Shown here: in pieces, positions 5,578-17,692 of the stretch
Layout: each line of letters opens with the position of its first letter
How positions within the stretch are numbered: the stretch's first letter is position 1
Origin: a virus
Reading direction: 5' to 3' (one strand)
IMG/VR virus record: IMGVR_UViG_3300013093_000261
Span: 1-24,898 of that record
Length of the DNA: 24,898 bases
Notes under the pieces: generated by a model
Databases searched by the model: none
Told to the model about the DNA's origin: nothing
The model's input: only the letters and a program-made list of their open reading frames with translations
Made by a program: the position numbers and the translations under genes

Positions 5578-5915
5578 TGGCGTCACTTGACGATATTCTC
5601 ACTACCCAAAAAAACGGCGTCGTGGGCATAAATTCTTATGTGAATTTGTTAACAAATCACGCGGGGTCGTATTCAACTAAAGAACTATCCGCGGGGTCGG
5701 TGGTTAAATCATCTTCAGGCTGGCTTGCAACGGTCAGTGTTATTGTGGCCGGATCAACTCAAGGGTATCTTTACGATGCCACATCCGCGGCCTCTGGTGC
5801 TCGTATCTATGCCGTGCCTAACACGCTCGGTGTCTATCAGGTGCAAATACCATTCGCCACTGGTCTTTATTTCTCACCCGGAAGTGGGTCAATCATTTCT
5901 GTAGGATATTCGTGA
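5577..5915 (+). CDS. Small conserved virion protein (LDDILTTQKNGVV type)
   Basis: 112 residues, coupled to the nozzle gene by TAATG and to the next gene by TGATG. The N-terminal block LDDILTTQKNGVVGINSYV is a short motif I have seen repeatedly at the start of small structural proteins encoded beside podoviral tail genes. The rest is predicted beta-rich (VVKSSSGWLATVSVIVAG, GYLYDATSA, then IYAVPNTLGVYQVQIPFATGLYFSPG), resembling small beta-sandwich tail or decoration proteins. No enzyme motif, signal peptide or membrane segment is present. It is probably a minor tail or capsid component; the exact location is unknown. Confidence 0.7.
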   Translation: MASLDDILTTQKNGVVGINSYVNLLTNHAGSYSTKELSAGSVVKSSSGWLATVSVIVAGSTQGYLYDATSAASGARIYAVPNTLGVYQVQIPFATGLYFSPGSGSIISVGYS

Positions 5916-6649
5916 TGCCATTAACGCCGGGTAAGTCACAAAAAACGATCAGTCACAACATCTCCGAAATGATCCACGCGGGCCATCCGCACGATCAGGC
6001 CGTGGCAACGGCGCTGTCGACCGCGCGCAAAACAAAAGCCGAGGGCGGCAATTTTACCATAACCAAAACTGGTCCCGGCGCTTTTATGGGTAATCCGTTA
6101 AAAGAAAAAATTGAACCCGTTAACGACACAACGGTCAAGCATCAGCACATGCTGCATGAAGGCCCGATCCGTTCGCCTGTCGCCGGCCGCACTGACCATC
6201 TTCCCATGACGGTGGCTTCTGGTTCATTTGTAATTCCCGCCGATATCATATCCAAAAAAGGTGAAGGAAATACCGAGGCAGGATTTAAAGTAGCCCAAGA
6301 ACTCTTTAATCCTAAAAGTGGGGGATATAAAATATCTCGCCACATGTTTGCCTCGTCGCCGTATTTTCAAGAAAGTAAACAACCTTACCAATCCGGTAAT
6401 ATGCCTTATTCCGCTGGTGCAACTCCTTATGGAGCCCATTTAGCGACAGGGGGCAGTACCCCCGAAGATTCCCTTCCCGTCGAAATTATAGCGGCGGGCG
6501 GCGAATATGTTATACCGCCACGGGTTGTCCGTGAAATTGGCGGTGGTGACATCGACTATGGCCACGACATCCTTGATCACTTTGTGGTCGAATCTCGTAA
6601 AGATTTAATTAAAACACTTCAAAAATTACCGGGGCCAAAGAGGGACTAA
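5915..6649 (+). CDS. Virion-associated protein with paired GxFVIP motifs
   Basis: 244 residues. The ATG at 5915 is chosen because AGGA at 5903-5906 is well spaced and the codon overlaps the preceding stop (TGATG); a GTG at 5912 is possible. The N-terminus carries SHNISEMIHAGHPHDQAVAT (about 13-32), like small phage domains with repeated His/Gln/Ala (DUF6496-like). Two related blocks follow. GRTDHLPMTVASGSFVIPAD lies at 91-110 and then GEGNT. LPVEIIAAGGEYVIPPRVV begins near 188, continues through GGGDIDYGHDILDHFV and ends LQKLPGPKRD. I recall both blocks from podoviral virion genes, without a proven function. It lies between tail and ejection genes and is coupled to the GNAT gene by TAATG. Confidence 0.7.
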   Translation: MPLTPGKSQKTISHNISEMIHAGHPHDQAVATALSTARKTKAEGGNFTITKTGPGAFMGNPLKEKIEPVNDTTVKHQHMLHEGPIRSPVAGRTDHLPMTVASGSFVIPADIISKKGEGNTEAGFKVAQELFNPKSGGYKISRHMFASSPYFQESKQPYQSGNMPYSAGATPYGAHLATGGSTPEDSLPVEIIAAGGEYVIPPRVVREIGGGDIDYGHDILDHFVVESRKDLIKTLQKLPGPKRD

Positions 6650-7134
6650 TGACAGATATTAGATTAGGCACACCTGACGACGAAGCCGCCATGCTAGATT
6701 TGGCTCTCCGCGCTTGGGAAGAAAATGGGATTAAAGATGTAAATCCCGAGAAAATGCTGGGCATGATCCGACCCGCTTTGTACCTCTGGGAAGGGCTTGT
6801 TGGGATCATAGGGGAACCCGGCAAAAAGATTGAAGGGGCGGTCCTTTTAAGAGTCAGCAAAATGTGGTATTCGGATAGCTTAATGCTTGAAGAAAAGGCC
6901 ATTTTTGTCGACCCTGAGTTTAGAAGCGCGAAAGGCGGCCGCGCTCGAAGGCTTTGTGAGTTCTCTAAAAAGGTAGCCGATGAATTGGGCTTGCCGCTCA
7001 TTATTGGTGTTCTTTCGAACAACAGGACCGCGGCTAAGGTAAAACTGTACGAGCGTTCGTTTGGTCCGCCAGCGGGGGCTTTTTTCTTATACAACGTCCA
7101 TACTGGACATGAAGAGCATATGACGGAGCAATAA
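6649..7134 (+). CDS. GNAT-family N-acetyltransferase
   Basis: 161 residues. It starts with IRLGTPDDEAAMLDLALRAW, the usual first strand and helix of the GNAT fold. It carries the acetyl-CoA binding strand and loop IFVDPEFRSAKGGRARRL (about 85-102), in which R92-x3-G96-G97-x-A corresponds to the pyrophosphate-binding loop. The later KKVADELGLPLIIGVLSNN and KVKLYERSFGPPAGAFFLY are typical of strands 5 to 7 in this fold. It should transfer an acetyl group from acetyl-CoA to an amine; the substrate is unknown. It sits inside the virion gene cluster, coupled to the gene before it and one base before the ejection gene. It may therefore modify a virion or host protein late in infection (inference). 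Confidence 0.85.
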   Translation: MTDIRLGTPDDEAAMLDLALRAWEENGIKDVNPEKMLGMIRPALYLWEGLVGIIGEPGKKIEGAVLLRVSKMWYSDSLMLEEKAIFVDPEFRSAKGGRARRLCEFSKKVADELGLPLIIGVLSNNRTAAKVKLYERSFGPPAGAFFLYNVHTGHEEHMTEQ

Positions 7135-7135
7135 G

Positions 7136-10100
7136 ATGGGTGGCAAGACTGGAACGACGACGTCTAGCGTATCTATCCCGCCCGAGGTACTGGCGCGGTA
7201 TAACTCCGTTAACGCTCAGGCTCAGACTGCGGCAGGTACGCCGTTCCAGCAATATAGCACCGACCCTAATGCCTTTGTAGCTCCTATAAACGAGCAGCAG
7301 CAGACAGGTATTAATAATATCAATCAACAAGCCACCGCTGCCCAGCCCGGTTATCAAACCGCTATGCAGGGCACTCAGGCCGCGTCTCAAGGATATAATG
7401 GTCAGAACTATCAACAGGGCGTTCAGGCTTATATGAACCCTTATTTGCAAAATGCCATGGGATCGACCGCGGCAATGTTGCAAAACCAAAACCAGCAACA
7501 ACAAAACCAATTAATGGGTAACGCCATCCAGCAAGGTGCCTTCGGCGGCGATCGGGGCAACATTGCTCAGGCCGCGCTTATGGGTCAGCAAAATCTTGCC
7601 ATGGGGCAAACGCTCGGCCAGATGGCAAATCAAGGTTACCAGCAGTCTGCTCAAAACTATATGCAAGGCCTGCAGCAACAGGGTGCGCTAGCCAATCAGT
7701 ATGGCAATCTCGCCGGCGCGGCCCAAACGGCTGGCTTACAGGGCGCTCAGGCGCAGCTTGGCGCAGGTACTCTCGGCCAACAGACCGAGCAGGCTGGCAA
7801 AACGGCACTGTACAACCAATTTCAACAGCAGCAGGCCTATCCGTTCCAAGTGGCTCAATTCCTTGCCAATATCGCGGAAGGCACCGGCGCTTTGTCTGGA
7901 TCGACCACGACGCAGACATCGCCCACGTCATTTTTCTCCGATCGTCGCCTCAAACACGATATCCATCGCATCGGCGAGACGGACGAAGGCTTGCCAATCT
8001 ACAAGTTCAAGTACAAAGGCGACGACAAGACAAACATCGGCTTTATGGCCGACGAGGTCGAAAAGGTTCATCCAGAAGCTGTCGGCGAATCACATGGCTT
8101 CAAGACTGTCGATTACGATCGTGCGGCGCGTTACGCGGGCGGCTTGGTCGGCAATTCCGAGGGCGGAATGGTCACGCCTATGCATGAAAAGGAAGGTTTC
8201 TTTGACGGCGGGGACGTGGCATCTAACCCCAATGACATCGCGGCCTTATTGGCATCACAAAAACAGTCTTACGCCCCTTTCCAACAGGGCGGCCTATACG
8301 GAGCCACAAGTGGCGGAACTCCGGGCGGTAAGGGCTTTGTCCCTGCAGCCAGTCTTCCTGTAGGCCACCTTGCCGTTGCAAGTCCATCCCGCACACAAGC
8401 TCCCGAAACGCTTATGGGCGACGTCCATGAAGCTTCGACCTTGGGCAAGGATGCTCAAGACCTTTGGGCACAAGGGCAAAAGTTTAAAAAGTTTGCTTCG
8501 GATTATGTTAATTCATCCACTGCGCCACAACAGGGCGCATATCGCGGTGGCCTCGTGCATGCTTATGCCGATGGTGGAGATGTAGAACCTTATTCTGAAA
8601 ACGACCCAATGTCGGACGTTGTCAAAGAAGGTGAGAAAAAGCCAACTGAATTGAAGCTTATGCAGTCTCAGCAGTTGCCTTCGGGCAGCTCTGGTTCGAA
8701 CGGCATGAACGATCTCAATAATGCCGTTTCATTTGGCAAAGACCTTGCTTGGATTGGTAGTTTATTCTCCAAGGGCGGCCGTGCAGGGTTTGCGGATGGC
8801 GGAGACGCAGAGGGATTTGATCCATTTGCTGCCGAACCGGGTGGTATTGTTGGGCTTTCAGGGGCGCAGGCTAAACAAATTCCGGGTTTTGATCTTTCCG
8901 CAGCAGAAGACCATGCGCGCAATGCTGGTATTAATCCTGTTGAATATACTCGCTTAATCAAAGGCGAAAGCGGCGGCAAACCCGTTCTTGGCGATGAAGG
9001 TTCGTCAGGTGGCGTTCTGCAGCTACACGTTGGCGGCCTGTCTAAGCAATATCCTAATCCCGGCCTTGGCGATGCCTACGTTGCTGAACGCAATCCAGAG
9101 CTGGCAAAGAGCGGTACTCCTCAGGATAAAATTAGCTACATTAACGACCCTGCCAATCAAAACGATATTTCTCAATGGGGCGCTAATTATATTGCGAAGC
9201 ACGGCGCAAACGCTTGGACAGTGGCACGCAATCAAGGACTTCTTGGTGCAACAAGTCCTGCCGATCGCCCTGTTCCGGGCGCCATGAATGCTCAGGCCGC
9301 TACAGGACAGCAAGGCTTTTCCGTGCCCGGCGAAGAGCAGCCTAAGTCCCTTGGCGATACGCTCACAAGCGAGAAATTCCTTGTGCCACTCCTGTCAGGC
9401 CTCGGCGCTATGGCTGGCTCCAATAGCCGTTATCTTGGTGCCGCGCTCTTGCAGGGCGTTGGTGCAGGCGCTAAGAGCTACGAAGATGTACAGAACCAAA
9501 TGCTCGAACGTCAGGCCCTCCAGCCTGTTGTGCAGCAACGTCAAATTGATACCCTCAACAAACTTGCAGGCGGCCTACAGGCATATAATGCCCAGACTGG
9601 ACAAAACGTATCGCTGCAAGATTATGCCAATATGGTTGGTTATAAGGGCTATCTTCCTTCTGGTGGCCAAGCGGCTCAATCAACCAATACTGGCACATCT
9701 ATGCCTCAGGCATTGAGCTTGCTTCAAATGCAGTCTGCTATAGTTAACCGTAATGGAGTGCAAATTCCTGCCATGAGTGACCCGCTTTCTTTGCAGGCTG
9801 CAATTCAAAAAAACGGTACATCCGTAGATGCGAACGTAAAAAATATCGTCGACAACATGAGAGTTCGTTTAAACGAGATTGAAACTCATGGATATACGAC
9901 AGATGTGAACGGCAACCGCATCAACCTCCCGGGCGCTATTGCAGCTGGTCAGCAATCTGTATATGCTGGCAACAAAGTGGCTCAAGCCAACAAATTTGTT
10001 GATCAAGGGAACGACTTTGCTGCAACTGTTGGTCCTACGCGGCAAGCCCTTCAAGATTTGCAAGATGCTTACAGCAAATATCGCGCTGGTACTTTCGGAA

Positions 10101-10624
10101 CAGCTCGTTCCGCCCTTGATCGCATTGCTCAAGAACTTGATCCAGACGGGAAGATTCCTGCGTTGCATGGCTTAAGCGAAGACAGCAGCTCGGAACAGTA
10201 CGATATTGCAATGAAGTCAGCGGCACAGCTCGTAGCACGTCAATTGCAAGGCATGAGCACTGCAGCGCCCAAGAGCGAAATTGGGTTGTTGAATAGCTTT
10301 GCTGCCAATCCAGATATGTCTCCGGGCGCGATCCGAAGCATCATCGTCCGCGGTAAGGCACTTGTGGATTACAATCAGGCTCTTCATTCTAACTTCCGTC
10401 CTGAAAATGAAGATTTTGACGTTCAAAATTACCAAAATAAATTCAATAGCCAGCACAATTACGCTAACGAATTTATTGGAAAGAACGAAAAAGAAACACC
10501 TTGGATGAAAGATCAGGCTCCGGCGGCAGTTCAAAATGAAAATGACATTGCTAGACTTCCTTCCGGCGCTCCGTTCATTGTTCCTTACGGTCCTTCAAAG
10601 GGCCAAATTAGATACGCACCATAA
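7136..10624 (+). CDS. Large ejection/internal virion protein with S74-like and lysozyme-like domains
   Basis: 1162 residues; GGAG at 7125-7128 precedes the ATG. Residues 1-260 are rich in Gln, Ala, Gly and Asn, with alternating Q runs (about 115-127), and finish QAYPFQVAQFLANIAEGTG, a layout seen in podoviral ejection proteins. Residues 266-330 match a short Peptidase S74 domain: SDRRLKHDI at 268-276, YKFKYKGDDKTNIGFMADEV, then KTVDYDRA. Next come glycine motifs of the DGGD type (357, 479, 554). Residues about 585-705 resemble a lysozyme or transglycosylase fold (YTRLIKGESGGKP, then GGVLQLHVGGL, then QWGANYIAKHG). The last 450 residues are mostly helical and end LPSGAPFIVPYGPSKGQIRY. Probable role: a virion protein that crosses or opens the cell wall during DNA entry. 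Confidence 0.75.
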   Translation: MGGKTGTTTSSVSIPPEVLARYNSVNAQAQTAAGTPFQQYSTDPNAFVAPINEQQQTGINNINQQATAAQPGYQTAMQGTQAASQGYNGQNYQQGVQAYMNPYLQNAMGSTAAMLQNQNQQQQNQLMGNAIQQGAFGGDRGNIAQAALMGQQNLAMGQTLGQMANQGYQQSAQNYMQGLQQQGALANQYGNLAGAAQTAGLQGAQAQLGAGTLGQQTEQAGKTALYNQFQQQQAYPFQVAQFLANIAEGTGALSGSTTTQTSPTSFFSDRRLKHDIHRIGETDEGLPIYKFKYKGDDKTNIGFMADEVEKVHPEAVGESHGFKTVDYDRAARYAGGLVGNSEGGMVTPMHEKEGFFDGGDVASNPNDIAALLASQKQSYAPFQQGGLYGATSGGTPGGKGFVPAASLPVGHLAVASPSRTQAPETLMGDVHEASTLGKDAQDLWAQGQKFKKFASDYVNSSTAPQQGAYRGGLVHAYADGGDVEPYSENDPMSDVVKEGEKKPTELKLMQSQQLPSGSSGSNGMNDLNNAVSFGKDLAWIGSLFSKGGRAGFADGGDAEGFDPFAAEPGGIVGLSGAQAKQIPGFDLSAAEDHARNAGINPVEYTRLIKGESGGKPVLGDEGSSGGVLQLHVGGLSKQYPNPGLGDAYVAERNPELAKSGTPQDKISYINDPANQNDISQWGANYIAKHGANAWTVARNQGLLGATSPADRPVPGAMNAQAATGQQGFSVPGEEQPKSLGDTLTSEKFLVPLLSGLGAMAGSNSRYLGAALLQGVGAGAKSYEDVQNQMLERQALQPVVQQRQIDTLNKLAGGLQAYNAQTGQNVSLQDYANMVGYKGYLPSGGQAAQSTNTGTSMPQALSLLQMQSAIVNRNGVQIPAMSDPLSLQAAIQKNGTSVDANVKNIVDNMRVRLNEIETHGYTTDVNGNRINLPGAIAAGQQSVYAGNKVAQANKFVDQGNDFAATVGPTRQALQDLQDAYSKYRAGTFGTARSALDRIAQELDPDGKIPALHGLSEDSSSEQYDIAMKSAAQLVARQLQGMSTAAPKSEIGLLNSFAANPDMSPGAIRSIIVRGKALVDYNQALHSNFRPENEDFDVQNYQNKFNSQHNYANEFIGKNEKETPWMKDQAPAAVQNENDIARLPSGAPFIVPYGPSKGQIRYAP

Positions 10625-10638
10625 GCGAGAGGTAAGCC

Positions 10639-13026
10639 ATGGTTGATGATCCTTTCGCAAAATATTCGGCAGCTCCTCCGCAATCCGCTCCGCCATCGGC
10701 CGCTGGCGGCGAAGACCCTTTTGCTAAATATGCAAGGGCTCCGGAAGGAGAGCAAGAACCACCAGAGCCAAAAGAAGTTGGTATGGGTTCTGCGGCTTTG
10801 CGTGGCGCTAAACAAGCCTTTACTCTTGGTTATAGTCCACAAGTAACCGCTGCCATTAAAACGGGCCATATGGTAGGCAGCGATGATCCAGAATACGCAA
10901 AAGCTGTTGCTGAAGAAAAAGCAGCCAACGAAGCGGCGTGGAATCAGCACCCATTTGCCTATGGCGCAGGAATGGTTGGGGCTGCAATACCGGCTGCTGT
11001 AGCGCAACTTTTTGCGGCTCCGGAAGAGGCGGCTGTGGCCGGGACAATTGGAGCTGGTGAGTTAATAGCAAACGCCAGCAATGTCGCCAGACTGGCAGGG
11101 ACAGGTGTACGCGCCGTTGCGGGTGCAGGAGAAGGCATTGCTCCTACATTGGCTCGGGGCGCTGCAGGGGCTCTTGAAAGTCCCCTTACAGAAGGTGCGA
11201 TTTATGGATCATCCACCGGCGATACTGCAGAAGAGAAATTAAAAGGCGCAGCAGAAGGCGCTATCGGTGCAAAAATCCTTCCGCCAATTATAAAGGGAGC
11301 TGCGGGAGTAGCTGGCGATGTAGCCAGCAGCGTTATTGGCAAACCTTTTATGCGTGCAATTAGCGGTGACCCAACTACTGCTGAAGTGGTTGGAAATGCG
11401 GCTAAAAATATTGAGAATTTGACGGGAACATCATTAGAAACGCCTGCCGCATCTGCATCTACAAGTCCGGTCATGGCATTGGCGACGAAAGCCGATCCGT
11501 TTTCTCAAGCTGCCAATAGTGCCGCTCGCCACTCGGCAAGTGTTGACAGTGTACTGTCTAACATCACTGGTGATAATCCACCGAACCCAGAAATGGCCGG
11601 CCGTGCAATCCAAAATTCATTTTATAATGATTTTATTACTGGATCGGGTCCAAAAAGTTTCCGTTCTCAAATGGATGCTATATATGCTCCCGTTCAATCA
11701 ATGGAAGCATCGCCTAAGCAGTTCAATCCTACCAATCTTATGGATGCAATTGGTAACCTTCGCACTGGGGACGATTATAAAATTAACCCAAAAGGAATTG
11801 ATAGCGCCATTGCTACCATTAAGGATGGCTTGGAATCTGCTCCCGATGGGATGACGCTTGGCTATATGCGTAAATTGCGTCAGTTCGTTAGCGATAAAAT
11901 GGATTTTAATACTTTGAACGGTATTGATTCCGATCAAAAAACAATGGCGGCACTTCGCAACGCATTGACGCAAGATATGCAGGCAACGGCTCAAAAATTG
12001 GCTGGAAGCGACACATCAAAAGCTTTTGCCTTTCAAAGGGCAGAGGCTAAAGCGTCGCAATTGTATGGCCTTAAAGATCAACTTATTGATAGCCTTGGCA
12101 ATATAACACCCGGGACCGCTGGGTCTCAAACGCCATCCAATGCGTTCTTTAATATGGTCGGAATGGCCGGGCAACGTCGTGCAGGTGATGTAGCTCAATT
12201 GAGCAATATTAAAGAAGCCATATCACCAGAGGCTTGGAATCAATTTCAGCGGGCATACATTAATCAAATGTCTCCTTCTGGAAAATTTTCTTACGGCAAT
12301 TTTGGTAAACAGTACTCAATGATGAGCGATCCGGCTAAAGACCTTATATTTGGTCAAGCCGGAGACAAGGGCGTTCGAGACGTTATGGAAAATATATCAA
12401 CTATTGGACGCCATGTTGGGCCAAAACTTGATAAATTAACCAGTCAGGCCGGAGGGATTTCTGGTCTTCAAACGCTCGAAGGTGTGGCTACATTTGGAGC
12501 CCCCGCGCGGGCATTGACAGCAATGGGGACGGCGGGCATTTTGGGCCGCGCTGGTGCTCGCAATATTACAGCATCTCTTCCGCCAGCAAGCACTTTGTCC
12601 AACTTATCTAGGGCCGTTCAAAGCAACCCTAAAGCTCAAGAAATCATTAATAGTCTTCAAACAAAACTTGCCGATCCCGTTCTTTCCGGAACTCGGACAG
12701 GACGTCAAGTTATTTTAAATGCGCTTCAAAAATCATCTGCAGCTTTAAGCGCTCAAACAGGTATTTCACTTAGCCCTGTCGCGCTTCATGCCATAATTGT
12801 GGCGGGCGGTTATGCTGCCCGTCATGCGCTTGGTCACGCAGCGGGTGGAAGAATTGGCCGCAAAACGGGCGGCGCTGTCAAAAAAGACGCTAAGGCCGAG
12901 GCTCATCGCTTGATTGCGTTGTCTGAAAAGATTAGAAAGAAACAGGCTCAACAGACCGAGCCTTTGTTGAATTTGGACGACACTACCGTCGCCAAAGCAT
13001 TGGAAATAGCCAATAGGGGTAAATGA
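10639..13026 (+). CDS. Large internal virion/DNA ejection protein
   Basis: 795 residues. AGAGG at 10628-10632 precedes the ATG. The N-terminus repeats a short motif, DPFAKY, at residues 4-9 and 26-31, separated by a Pro/Ala/Ser linker. Residues about 85-240 are Ala/Gly-rich and hydrophobic (AYGAGMVGAAIPAAVAQLF, AAEGAIGAKILPPIIKGAAG), able to insert into or cross membranes. The middle is helical and polar. The C-terminus has GGRIGRKTGG (736-745), a basic helix, then TEPLLNLDDTTVAKALEIAN (about 773-792), an ending I recall from many large proteins of alphaproteobacterial phages. It is placed directly after the other ejection-type gene and likely acts with it. No enzyme domain is recognised. Confidence 0.7.
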   Translation: MVDDPFAKYSAAPPQSAPPSAAGGEDPFAKYARAPEGEQEPPEPKEVGMGSAALRGAKQAFTLGYSPQVTAAIKTGHMVGSDDPEYAKAVAEEKAANEAAWNQHPFAYGAGMVGAAIPAAVAQLFAAPEEAAVAGTIGAGELIANASNVARLAGTGVRAVAGAGEGIAPTLARGAAGALESPLTEGAIYGSSTGDTAEEKLKGAAEGAIGAKILPPIIKGAAGVAGDVASSVIGKPFMRAISGDPTTAEVVGNAAKNIENLTGTSLETPAASASTSPVMALATKADPFSQAANSAARHSASVDSVLSNITGDNPPNPEMAGRAIQNSFYNDFITGSGPKSFRSQMDAIYAPVQSMEASPKQFNPTNLMDAIGNLRTGDDYKINPKGIDSAIATIKDGLESAPDGMTLGYMRKLRQFVSDKMDFNTLNGIDSDQKTMAALRNALTQDMQATAQKLAGSDTSKAFAFQRAEAKASQLYGLKDQLIDSLGNITPGTAGSQTPSNAFFNMVGMAGQRRAGDVAQLSNIKEAISPEAWNQFQRAYINQMSPSGKFSYGNFGKQYSMMSDPAKDLIFGQAGDKGVRDVMENISTIGRHVGPKLDKLTSQAGGISGLQTLEGVATFGAPARALTAMGTAGILGRAGARNITASLPPASTLSNLSRAVQSNPKAQEIINSLQTKLADPVLSGTRTGRQVILNALQKSSAALSAQTGISLSPVALHAIIVAGGYAARHALGHAAGGRIGRKTGGAVKKDAKAEAHRLIALSEKIRKKQAQQTEPLLNLDDTTVAKALEIANRGK

Positions 13027-15513: not shown

Positions 15514-15927
15514 CTAGGCCTGACCTTGTTCGGCCAAATACTGTAAGAAAGCAGACCAAGCTGCCTCACACCCGAGCGCGATGCAGACAAAAGCGCCTTT
15601 TTCCTTCGCGACATTCAAGAACTCCTTTTGCCCATCTTGCCATGATGACTTGGTATGATCTCGACGTTTTATTTCACAAACAAATGACGGTGACGCAGGA
15701 ATAATAACATCCGACGCCCCCTTGGTCATGCCCTCGGCCCGTTCAAATGCCGCCTTCGTCCAGCTGCGCTTGCCCTCATTCCTTGGATGGAATGCGATAA
15801 GCCCCCACGAATCAGGATAATCCTTACGCAGCCTATTAAAGAACGTAACCTGCTCCATTGATTCGGACGGGCACTCGCCGCGATAGCTCATGTCGCCAAA
15901 TACTGGGATGTCATGCGGGAATTTCAT
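15514..15927 (-). CDS. VRR-NUC-like PD-(D/E)XK nuclease
   Basis: 137 residues. The ATG at 15927 has GGAGG close upstream; a TTG at 15948 is rejected. Motifs of a PD-(D/E)XK nuclease are present. Glu26 sits in an early helix (SMEQVTFFNRLRKDYP). A strand and turn, GMTKGASDVIIPA, carries Asp73, and FVCEIKRRDHTKSSWQDGQK carries Glu85 and Lys87 (E-x-K). The sequence then continues WQ-x-GQ-x-F, as in the VRR-NUC and phage nuclease group. Its role could be resolving branched DNA or degrading host DNA. It overlaps the helicase gene by 17 bases, so helicase and nuclease are made together. Confidence 0.8.
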   Translation of the reverse strand: MKFPHDIPVFGDMSYRGECPSESMEQVTFFNRLRKDYPDSWGLIAFHPRNEGKRSWTKAAFERAEGMTKGASDVIIPASPSFVCEIKRRDHTKSSWQDGQKEFLNVAKEKGAFVCIALGCEAAWSAFLQYLAEQGQA

Positions 15928-17692
15928 CTGCCCTCCGGTTGTATGCAAATACCTTATAGAACTTTGTGCTTACGTCTTTAGCATAAGTAATGGTGTCTGG
16001 CTTTTTCCCGCCAAGCGCCAAAAACGCGGCCCGGTCTGTGTAACCCTGAGACCACGTAGGCGCCTTAAACACCCAAAACGCAAATGATCGGTAAGGCGTG
16101 GTGACATTAATCCGCCAGCACTCGCGCCCAGATTGGCTAAGGGTGCTATTGACCTCCCAACCCGTCACAACGTCCGTTTGCCGCCGCGTAGGGTCTGCCT
16201 TCATCTCTTTAAACGCAGCAACAAGCTTCTCGTTCGGGTCGACAATCTCGCCCTTACACTCGCTACAATATCTTGATGCTATGTCGTTATCGGCCTCGCA
16301 GTGGGGGCATTGTTTCGTGGTCCACCTATAGCTACACTGCAAAAGCTGTCCCGCAACCAATACTCGACTACCGCACCGTCTTCCGTAATGTGCCGGGACG
16401 TCCCCATGTTCTGACGGAATTGGTTTACCGTCGAGATCGCAAAAATACCCACTAGCGTTAATTTTGAAACCTGAGGGGTTCGGCCTTGCAGTAAACTCAT
16501 TTTCAGCCTCGCATGTTGGACAAGTGCATTTAATGTAAGTGACGTCGGCGCCTTTTTTGACGGCCGTAATTTCAGGATTGAATACGTCGCCATCCGGGCA
16601 GTGCCGCTCAATGTTTTCGGCATAGTCCAAGATCAGACAATCATCCTTGCCGTCACTAATACGCAAACCGCGGCCGATGATCTGCTGCAATAGACCTACG
16701 GATTCCGTCGCCCGTAGCATTGCAATCAAATCCACATGTGGTGCGTCGAAACCGGTCGTCAGCACCGACACGTTCACGATGTACTTGATCTCGCGCGCTT
16801 TGAACCGAGCTATAATGTCTGCGCGCTCTTCTCTTGGTGTGTCACCGGTAACGATCGCAGAAAGCTCCCGTGGGAGGCTGGCAAAGCACTCGTGGGCATG
16901 TTGCACGGTCGCCGCAAAGATCATCACTCCCTGCCTGTTTCTGGCCTGTGCAACCACGTCTGCAATAATGTCGGACGTTGTCCTGCCCAGCCCTACATAT
17001 GCCCGATCGACATCAGCCGCGTCAAACTGCCCTCGGCTGTTCAACTTCATATCCAGCGTATGATAACTCTCGGCATGAATTTTACCAATGACCGGCTTGG
17101 TTAAAAAACCCTTATCAATAAGTTCCCGAGCAGTAATGCGATCGACACAAACGGCAAAATAAGGATCACTTGTTTCCCGTTCGGGAACGGGATTACCGTT
17201 CGGCCATTGGGCAAAAATATACCCTGTGCCCATCCTATAGGGCGTGGCCGTCATACCAACAACGCGGATATTGGGGTTTTGTTCCCGCATAGCCCATACA
17301 ATCTTGCGGATCGTCGGTGTGATGCCGTGACACTCGTCAATAATGATCATAGCAAACTGATTGCCAAAACGCTTGATCCGGTTGTGGACCGTCACAGGCG
17401 TAGCAAAGACCACCGGATGCTGCAGCGACTTCGCCCCGGCGCTCGCCGAGAAGATCGAGAACTTGTTGCCAGTGAGCGCGTATTTCTCGCTGTTCTGGAT
17501 CACAAGTTCTGCGCTGGGCGCAAGGCAAAGTATTCTTTTGCCGTTAGATATGCGGTGAATAGTCTCCGCCAACGCCGCAATAATGTGGCTCTTGCCTGCC
17601 CCAGTGGCAGCCTCGATCATGACAGGCTCAGTGGTTTTCTTGATCCACTGGATCAGCGCATCATGCGCCTTCTGCTGATAATCTCTTAACAT
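15911..17692 (-). CDS. SF2 DEAD/DEAH-type helicase with zinc ribbons
   Basis: 593 residues. N-terminal Q-type motif RDYQQKAHDAL, Walker A ATGAGKS (29-35), Walker B DECH (119-122), motif III TATP (148-151), motif V LTTGFDAP (311-318) and motif VI QIIGRGLR (337-344) define a complete superfamily 2 helicase of the Ssl2/RecQ-like phage group. After the helicase core come two metal-site candidates: C389/C391/C394, and C462-x2-C465 with C476-x2-C479. A C-terminal domain of about 90 residues follows, which I recall from phage helicases. It should unwind or remodel DNA using ATP. The ATG follows the methyltransferase stop with no gap. Confidence 0.92.
   Translation of the reverse strand: MLRDYQQKAHDALIQWIKKTTEPVMIEAATGAGKSHIIAALAETIHRISNGKRILCLAPSAELVIQNSEKYALTGNKFSIFSASAGAKSLQHPVVFATPVTVHNRIKRFGNQFAMIIIDECHGITPTIRKIVWAMREQNPNIRVVGMTATPYRMGTGYIFAQWPNGNPVPERETSDPYFAVCVDRITARELIDKGFLTKPVIGKIHAESYHTLDMKLNSRGQFDAADVDRAYVGLGRTTSDIIADVVAQARNRQGVMIFAATVQHAHECFASLPRELSAIVTGDTPREERADIIARFKAREIKYIVNVSVLTTGFDAPHVDLIAMLRATESVGLLQQIIGRGLRISDGKDDCLILDYAENIERHCPDGDVFNPEITAVKKGADVTYIKCTCPTCEAENEFTARPNPSGFKINASGYFCDLDGKPIPSEHGDVPAHYGRRCGSRVLVAGQLLQCSYRWTTKQCPHCEADNDIASRYCSECKGEIVDPNEKLVAAFKEMKADPTRRQTDVVTGWEVNSTLSQSGRECWRINVTTPYRSFAFWVFKAPTWSQGYTDRAAFLALGGKKPDTITYAKDVSTKFYKVFAYNRRADEIPA

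Follow-up and report, generated by a model that had tools for sequence, protein, structure and literature searches.

The window (the whole stretch of viral DNA analysed here, 24,898 nucleotides, IMG/VR record IMGVR_UViG_3300013093_000261) encodes on its + strand, as a single ORF, a fused ejection-type protein of 1162 aa and 122.5 kDa (7136..10624) with a reduced peptidase S74 domain far from its C-terminus. On balance, our analysis favours this domain being an active separator, which would cut the fused ejection protein before S268.

An S74 domain inside an ejection protein

PF13884 (Peptidase_S74) matches aa 268-316 of the ORF (7937..8083, +) with an E-value of 1.6e-9 and 38.3 bits, against a curated cut-off of 22, and is the sole Pfam family in it; a genome-level profile search places the domain at the same positions, 7937-8083, with 43.6 bits, and the AlphaFold core has a pLDDT of 81-87. 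Because the match opens at the dyad Ser, spans 57 of the profile's 58 positions and is followed by about 830 residues, the domain is both internal and far above chance; a chance match was ruled out by the scores and by family conservation. A sequence-only reading of this DNA had proposed a full S74 signature inside a large protein, to be given up if PF13884 found nothing there, and the match obtained bears it out, as the translation does for the intact Ser-x4-Lys spacing of S268 and K273. Profile score and dyad together place the protein in Peptidase_S74. The dyad motif S268-D-R-R-L-K273 occupies 7937..7954 (+; TCC GAT CGT CGC CTC AAA, with S268 from base 7937), the NIGFMADEV signature lies 3′ of it at aa 300-308, and the predicted scissile bond, F267-S268 (7934..7939, +), is placed by analogy with P586-S587 of MYRF and T1263-S1264 of T5. 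A 220-aa, Ser/Arg-rich frame is also open over the S74 region in another + frame (7701-8363) and is probably a compositional by-product.

The stretch preceding the domain (aa 1-267; 7136..7936, +; 21% Gln) is assigned as a gp7-like DNA-ejection part by PHROG matches and size. The ORF matches phrog_4287, ‘DNA ejection protein’, over aa 1-328 (E 3e-14) and phrog_6121, ‘virion structural protein’, over aa 49-331 (E 5e-21), both profiles having 392 positions with the S74 region as their last part; a search of the N-terminal part against the PDB gave no match. Membership in a DNA-ejection PHROG makes the ORF gp7-like, agreeing with the earlier view of the host as an ejection-type protein, and so does its place between a gene-14-like acetyltransferase and later ejection genes. 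The upstream acetyltransferase-like gene (6649..7134, +; phrog_1249, E 1e-7) stands where P22 has gene 14 and phage phiGT1 has phiGT1_16, and the downstream gene of 795 aa (10639..13026, +) is given the third ejection protein place, that of P22 gp16, by position; its product has no Pfam or PHROG match. The same architecture recurs in relatives, which contribute 64 distinct internal S74 domains, and a beta-proteobacterial MAG holds a close relative (78%).

Elsewhere in the window, the 2099-2611 protein matches phrog_315 endolysin (E 2e-50) over profile positions 331-494 of 677 only, and the 5912-6649 protein has a phrog_2423 match at its N-terminus and two similar stretches, GSFVIPADII and GGEYVIPPRVV. 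On the - strand, 15911-17692 encodes a RadD/YejH-like DNA helicase (NCBIfam NF053632, 483 bits, short of the 720 set as cut-off) whose C-terminus may be a zinc ribbon.

One gene or two at the S74 border

The S74 domain ends a separate gene in Sulfitobacter phages pCB2047-C and phiGT1, EBPR podovirus 2, Rhizobium phage RHph_I3_18, Pseudomonas phage PAE2 and Sinorhizobium phage phiM5, and in all six cultured phages the following gene encodes an ejection or muramidase-type protein; database records already annotate S74 at the ends of structural proteins from podoviruses. The S74-ended gp7-like genes of cultured podoviruses encode about 300-470 aa and keep the same gene order as the window, and in 52 of 55 loci with a terminal S74 the next start lies -8 to +3 nt from the stop. 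The N-terminal part of the window protein is homologous to the N-terminal parts of the two-gene systems (best E 6e-16). The link from the window to P22 gp7 (phrog_598) runs via PAE2 only, whose S74 gene matches phrog_598 up to aa 228 (E 6e-30), while P22 gp7 itself matches at E 2e-95. The domain is absent from P22 gp7 and from DSL-LC05 p32; P22 gp7 ends (...GLLGSLF) at the point where PAE2 reads ...GLYALL and then SDRRMK, the start of S74, and S74-less homologues of a Bradyrhizobium protein stop at the same border. Since a gp7-like protein ends at the S74 border, the window ORF would comprise a gp7-like protein, S74 and the next ejection protein. The idea that the domain sits internally stands, and the idea that it was dropped at random into a big protein does not, as it marks the C-terminus of the gp7-like protein. 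P22 and the two-gene phages phiGT1, pCB2047-C, phiM5 and PAE2 share the order acetyltransferase-like gene, gp7-like gene (with S74 in the latter four), next ejection gene, and they have PHROG families in common with the window; however, the first two ejection genes are separate in them and a single ORF in the window.

This border also bears on the suggestion that S74 serves as a one-time chaperone of oligomer assembly and that any cut is made elsewhere or by another protease. According to a note in its record, P22 gp7 is trimmed by host OpdA, which removes 20 residues from the N-terminus, and cleavage by the host may be needed for P22 gp20 (PMC8954989), but where S74 is naturally missing the homologues terminate at its border and not elsewhere, and we give this suggestion very little credence.

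C-terminal to the domain, a linker with repeated GG motifs (YAGGLV, FFDGGDV, YRGGLVHAYADGG, SKGGRAGFADGG) was delimited at 8129..8803 (+) from the translation and from relatives. Similar motifs were seen in HAAGGRIGRKTGG, near the C-terminal end of the 10639-13026 protein. It is within this linker that two products might arise without proteolysis, through an internal translation start 3′ of S74 in the fused gene: an in-frame ATG at codon 345, with a weak GAGG 5 nt upstream, lies close to where the junction falls in two-gene systems. As the one weak candidate site, and with dyad conservation left unexplained, it makes an internal start a highly improbable source of the second product.

The linker is followed by a putative lytic transglycosylase-like region (8894..9250, +) with a GES motif, GESGGKP..GDEGSSGGVLQ, at the position of the PF01464 SLT domain of the fused relative L082, where the match is strong (E 4e-26); relative L026 gives E 0.05 with PF01464. 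The lysozyme-like domain that had been read from the sequence was not recovered in the window protein itself, for which this region had no Pfam match, PF01464 included, even at E 5, a poor AlphaFold model without a Foldseek match, and no confirmation by hhalign. We infer the lysozyme part of the window protein from the SLT domain in the sequence of L082. The remaining C-terminal region (9251..10621, +), delimited from the translation, contains a conserved GLGAMAGSNSRYLGAA element. No homology was detected by HMM or hhalign between the C-terminal halves of the fused and two-gene systems, and the view that the same two genes were fused therefore rests on gene order and the L082 SLT domain. The window gene resembles two adjacent ejection genes fused into one, S74 occupying the joint between them.

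Fused ORFs can carry the domain twice. Two distinct S74 domains occur in at least ten ORFs, with the dyad present in all. In L045, L048 and L081 the second S74 lies at the joint where the linker ends (KDLAWIGSLFS-KGGRAGFADGG), and the window is without this second copy. On a tree of the S74 domain (73 columns, direction not given), at least four switches between terminal and internal architecture were counted, and second copies, on these few columns, were placed at least four separate times. Giant ORFs in which a pair of S74 domains shares one frame, both dyads kept, were seen in L042, L045, L048, L073, L075, L076, L077, L079 and L081, and further in L153, L200-L203, L205, L207 and L209; GG motifs were also seen 3′ of the second S74 in L045, L048 and L081.

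A conserved dyad in a reduced domain

Conservation was assessed over 129 distinct mini-S74 domains, of which 64 are internal, 63 end a gene and 2 are unclear. S268, D269, K273, A305 and P313 are invariant in all 129 and G302 is kept in 128, while positions 270-272 are variable. A profile biased towards S-D-x3-K was ruled out as the cause: with an unbiased profile, rebuilt with the first 10 columns (the dyad) left out, 150 of the 151 distinct domains found have S-x4-K, and in the sole exception, L102, SDRREK is shifted by an insertion. The profile aligns S268, D269, K273 and G302 with S587, D588, K592 and the essential Gly of MYRF, and with fibre chaperones of solved structure. MYRF is no longer cleaved when either catalytic residue is replaced (S587A, K592A), and is cleaved much less when the next Asp or the conserved Gly is changed (PMC8326128; PMC3742443). 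Conservation of the Ser and Lys almost throughout makes an exapted but inactive domain less likely; the invariance of Ser, Asp and Lys could nevertheless be structural and not catalytic.

Fold comparison with S74/ICA domains was supportive but weak. The modelled AlphaFold core (pLDDT 81-87) runs from a helix with the dyad through strands, a helix and a hairpin to an 8-residue last helix, a helix-strand order like that of ICA. The top PDB neighbour of the mini-S74 in Foldseek is the MYRF ICA (7dc3), a weak match (E 0.12, probability 0.84, TM 0.35), and the family sequence profile matches the solved ICA chains 6f45 (E 8e-5) and 7dc3 (E 5e-4). At 8084..8128 (+), predicted secondary structure and comparison with the tail-fibre S74 of relatives locate the final beta hairpin together with a stub of alpha-4, which is very short and reaches to about aa 331. 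In the AlphaFold model of the window S74 the long alpha-4 coiled-coil helix is absent, an approximately 8-residue stub leading into the GG linker; an alpha-1 collar helix is not predicted, and mini-S74 ejection proteins have no upstream beta-helix. From the Ser to the C-terminus, gene-terminal mini-S74 copies measure 64-82 aa, against 87-117 aa, alpha-4 helix included, for S74 copies in these phages' own tail fibres and 133 aa for T5. A survey of IMG/VR for tail-fibre S74 with the USDA76-2 fibre returned no relatives, and the tail-fibre S74 genes of the same phages were used instead. Tail-fibre-type genes ending in S74 with an alpha-4 helix were observed in phages that also carry mini-S74 (L218-L222, L225), and such genomes therefore hold two S74 forms. 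Arg is absent from the 30 residues upstream of the domain in 118 of 129 cases, so the oxyanion Arg of the endoNF/T5 type is missing there.

These losses bear on how far known S74 biochemistry can be carried over. The tailspike and fibre ICA domains of endoNF, T5 pb1 and the GA-1 appendage resemble the window domain in core fold elements, S-x4-K and the Asp after the Ser; however, they have an alpha-4 coiled coil and an upstream beta-helix, whereas the mini-S74 has neither and is internal in an ejection protein. The ICA of MYRF is similar in that its S74 lies mid-protein, it needs no upstream Arg and MYRF is cut into two functional parts, but its alpha-4 leucine zipper, needed for trimerisation and cleavage, has no counterpart in the mini-S74. 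MYRF is cleaved only as a trimer, which its C-terminal alpha-4 coiled coil holds together, and leucine-zipper mutants remain uncut (PMC8326128; PMC3742443); alpha-4 is the main trimerisation element of the MYRF (PMC8326128) and T5 chaperones. As the alpha-4 trimerisation helix, one of the features that define self-cleaving trimeric ICA chaperones, is missing from the mini-S74, what is known of tailspikes and MYRF biochemically is no warrant for assuming their usual trimeric activity, and the view that the domain works like a self-cleaving S74 is taken here as a working hypothesis.

A mini-S74 that does not cut, and is kept in the chain as a small folding or docking module of a protein acting as one long ejection protein, is the main competing account, and we regard it as possible but less probable than cleavage. 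The domain lacks the alpha-4 helix and upstream beta-helix that S74 systems known to be active possess, the two-gene phages keep S74 where the proteins are already separate, and some homologues do without it. Against this, 150 of 151 domains keep both Ser and Lys, whereas the intervening positions are variable, and a purely folding role has no obvious need for exactly the two catalytic residues.

A candidate built-in separator

If the domain does act as a separator, the gene would consist of a P22-gp7-like gene and the next muramidase/tunnel-type ejection gene joined via a mini-S74. Once the protein had folded and oligomerised, K273 would activate S268 for attack on the F267-S268 bond, which would release the 267-residue gp7-like part (27.9 kDa) from a remainder of 895 residues (94.6 kDa) on which the S74 core would stay as an N-terminal cap, so that a single translation product would supply the virion with two proteins at a constant ratio. 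Since the mini-S74 has no trimer helix of its own, assembly into the ejection-protein ring is proposed as the probable trigger. We infer the cut, its trigger and the roles of both products from these comparisons. The product split suggested by the sequence-only reading makes biological sense: of the T7 ejection proteins, the first localises to the outer membrane and others span the periplasm (PMC8954989), and separate chains are sensible where ejection proteins take such different places. For the family, the chances seem to us about even that mini-S74 domains without a trimer helix are active cis-separators, through which neighbouring ejection genes can be combined in a single ORF that has one S74 joint or two and still yields separate proteins, the trigger being assembly of the ejection ring and not a tailspike trimer.

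Internal and tandem S74 domains have precedents, the former in MYRF and the latter in the oenophage X27 Tal. As in the tandem mini-S74 ORFs, the two ICA domains of X27 Tal are internal and repeated with dyads kept; unlike the window protein, it forms a fibre-like device for adhesion, in which beta-prisms and triple beta-helices precede each chaperone (PMC12403621). Our literature search found no work combining ‘peptidase S74’ with ‘ejection protein’, nor a fused or tandem use in ejection proteins.

S74/ICA domains are chaperones known to release beta-helical trimers. If the separator account is true, reduced S74 domains at ejection joints would represent a different use, in which one gene supplies several injection proteins in a manner resembling viral polyproteins, and the giant ejection ORFs of podoviruses would be partly explained. 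The mini-S74 is a ready test case for S74 cutting without a coiled coil and, if it does cut, would be a very small self-cleaving tag.
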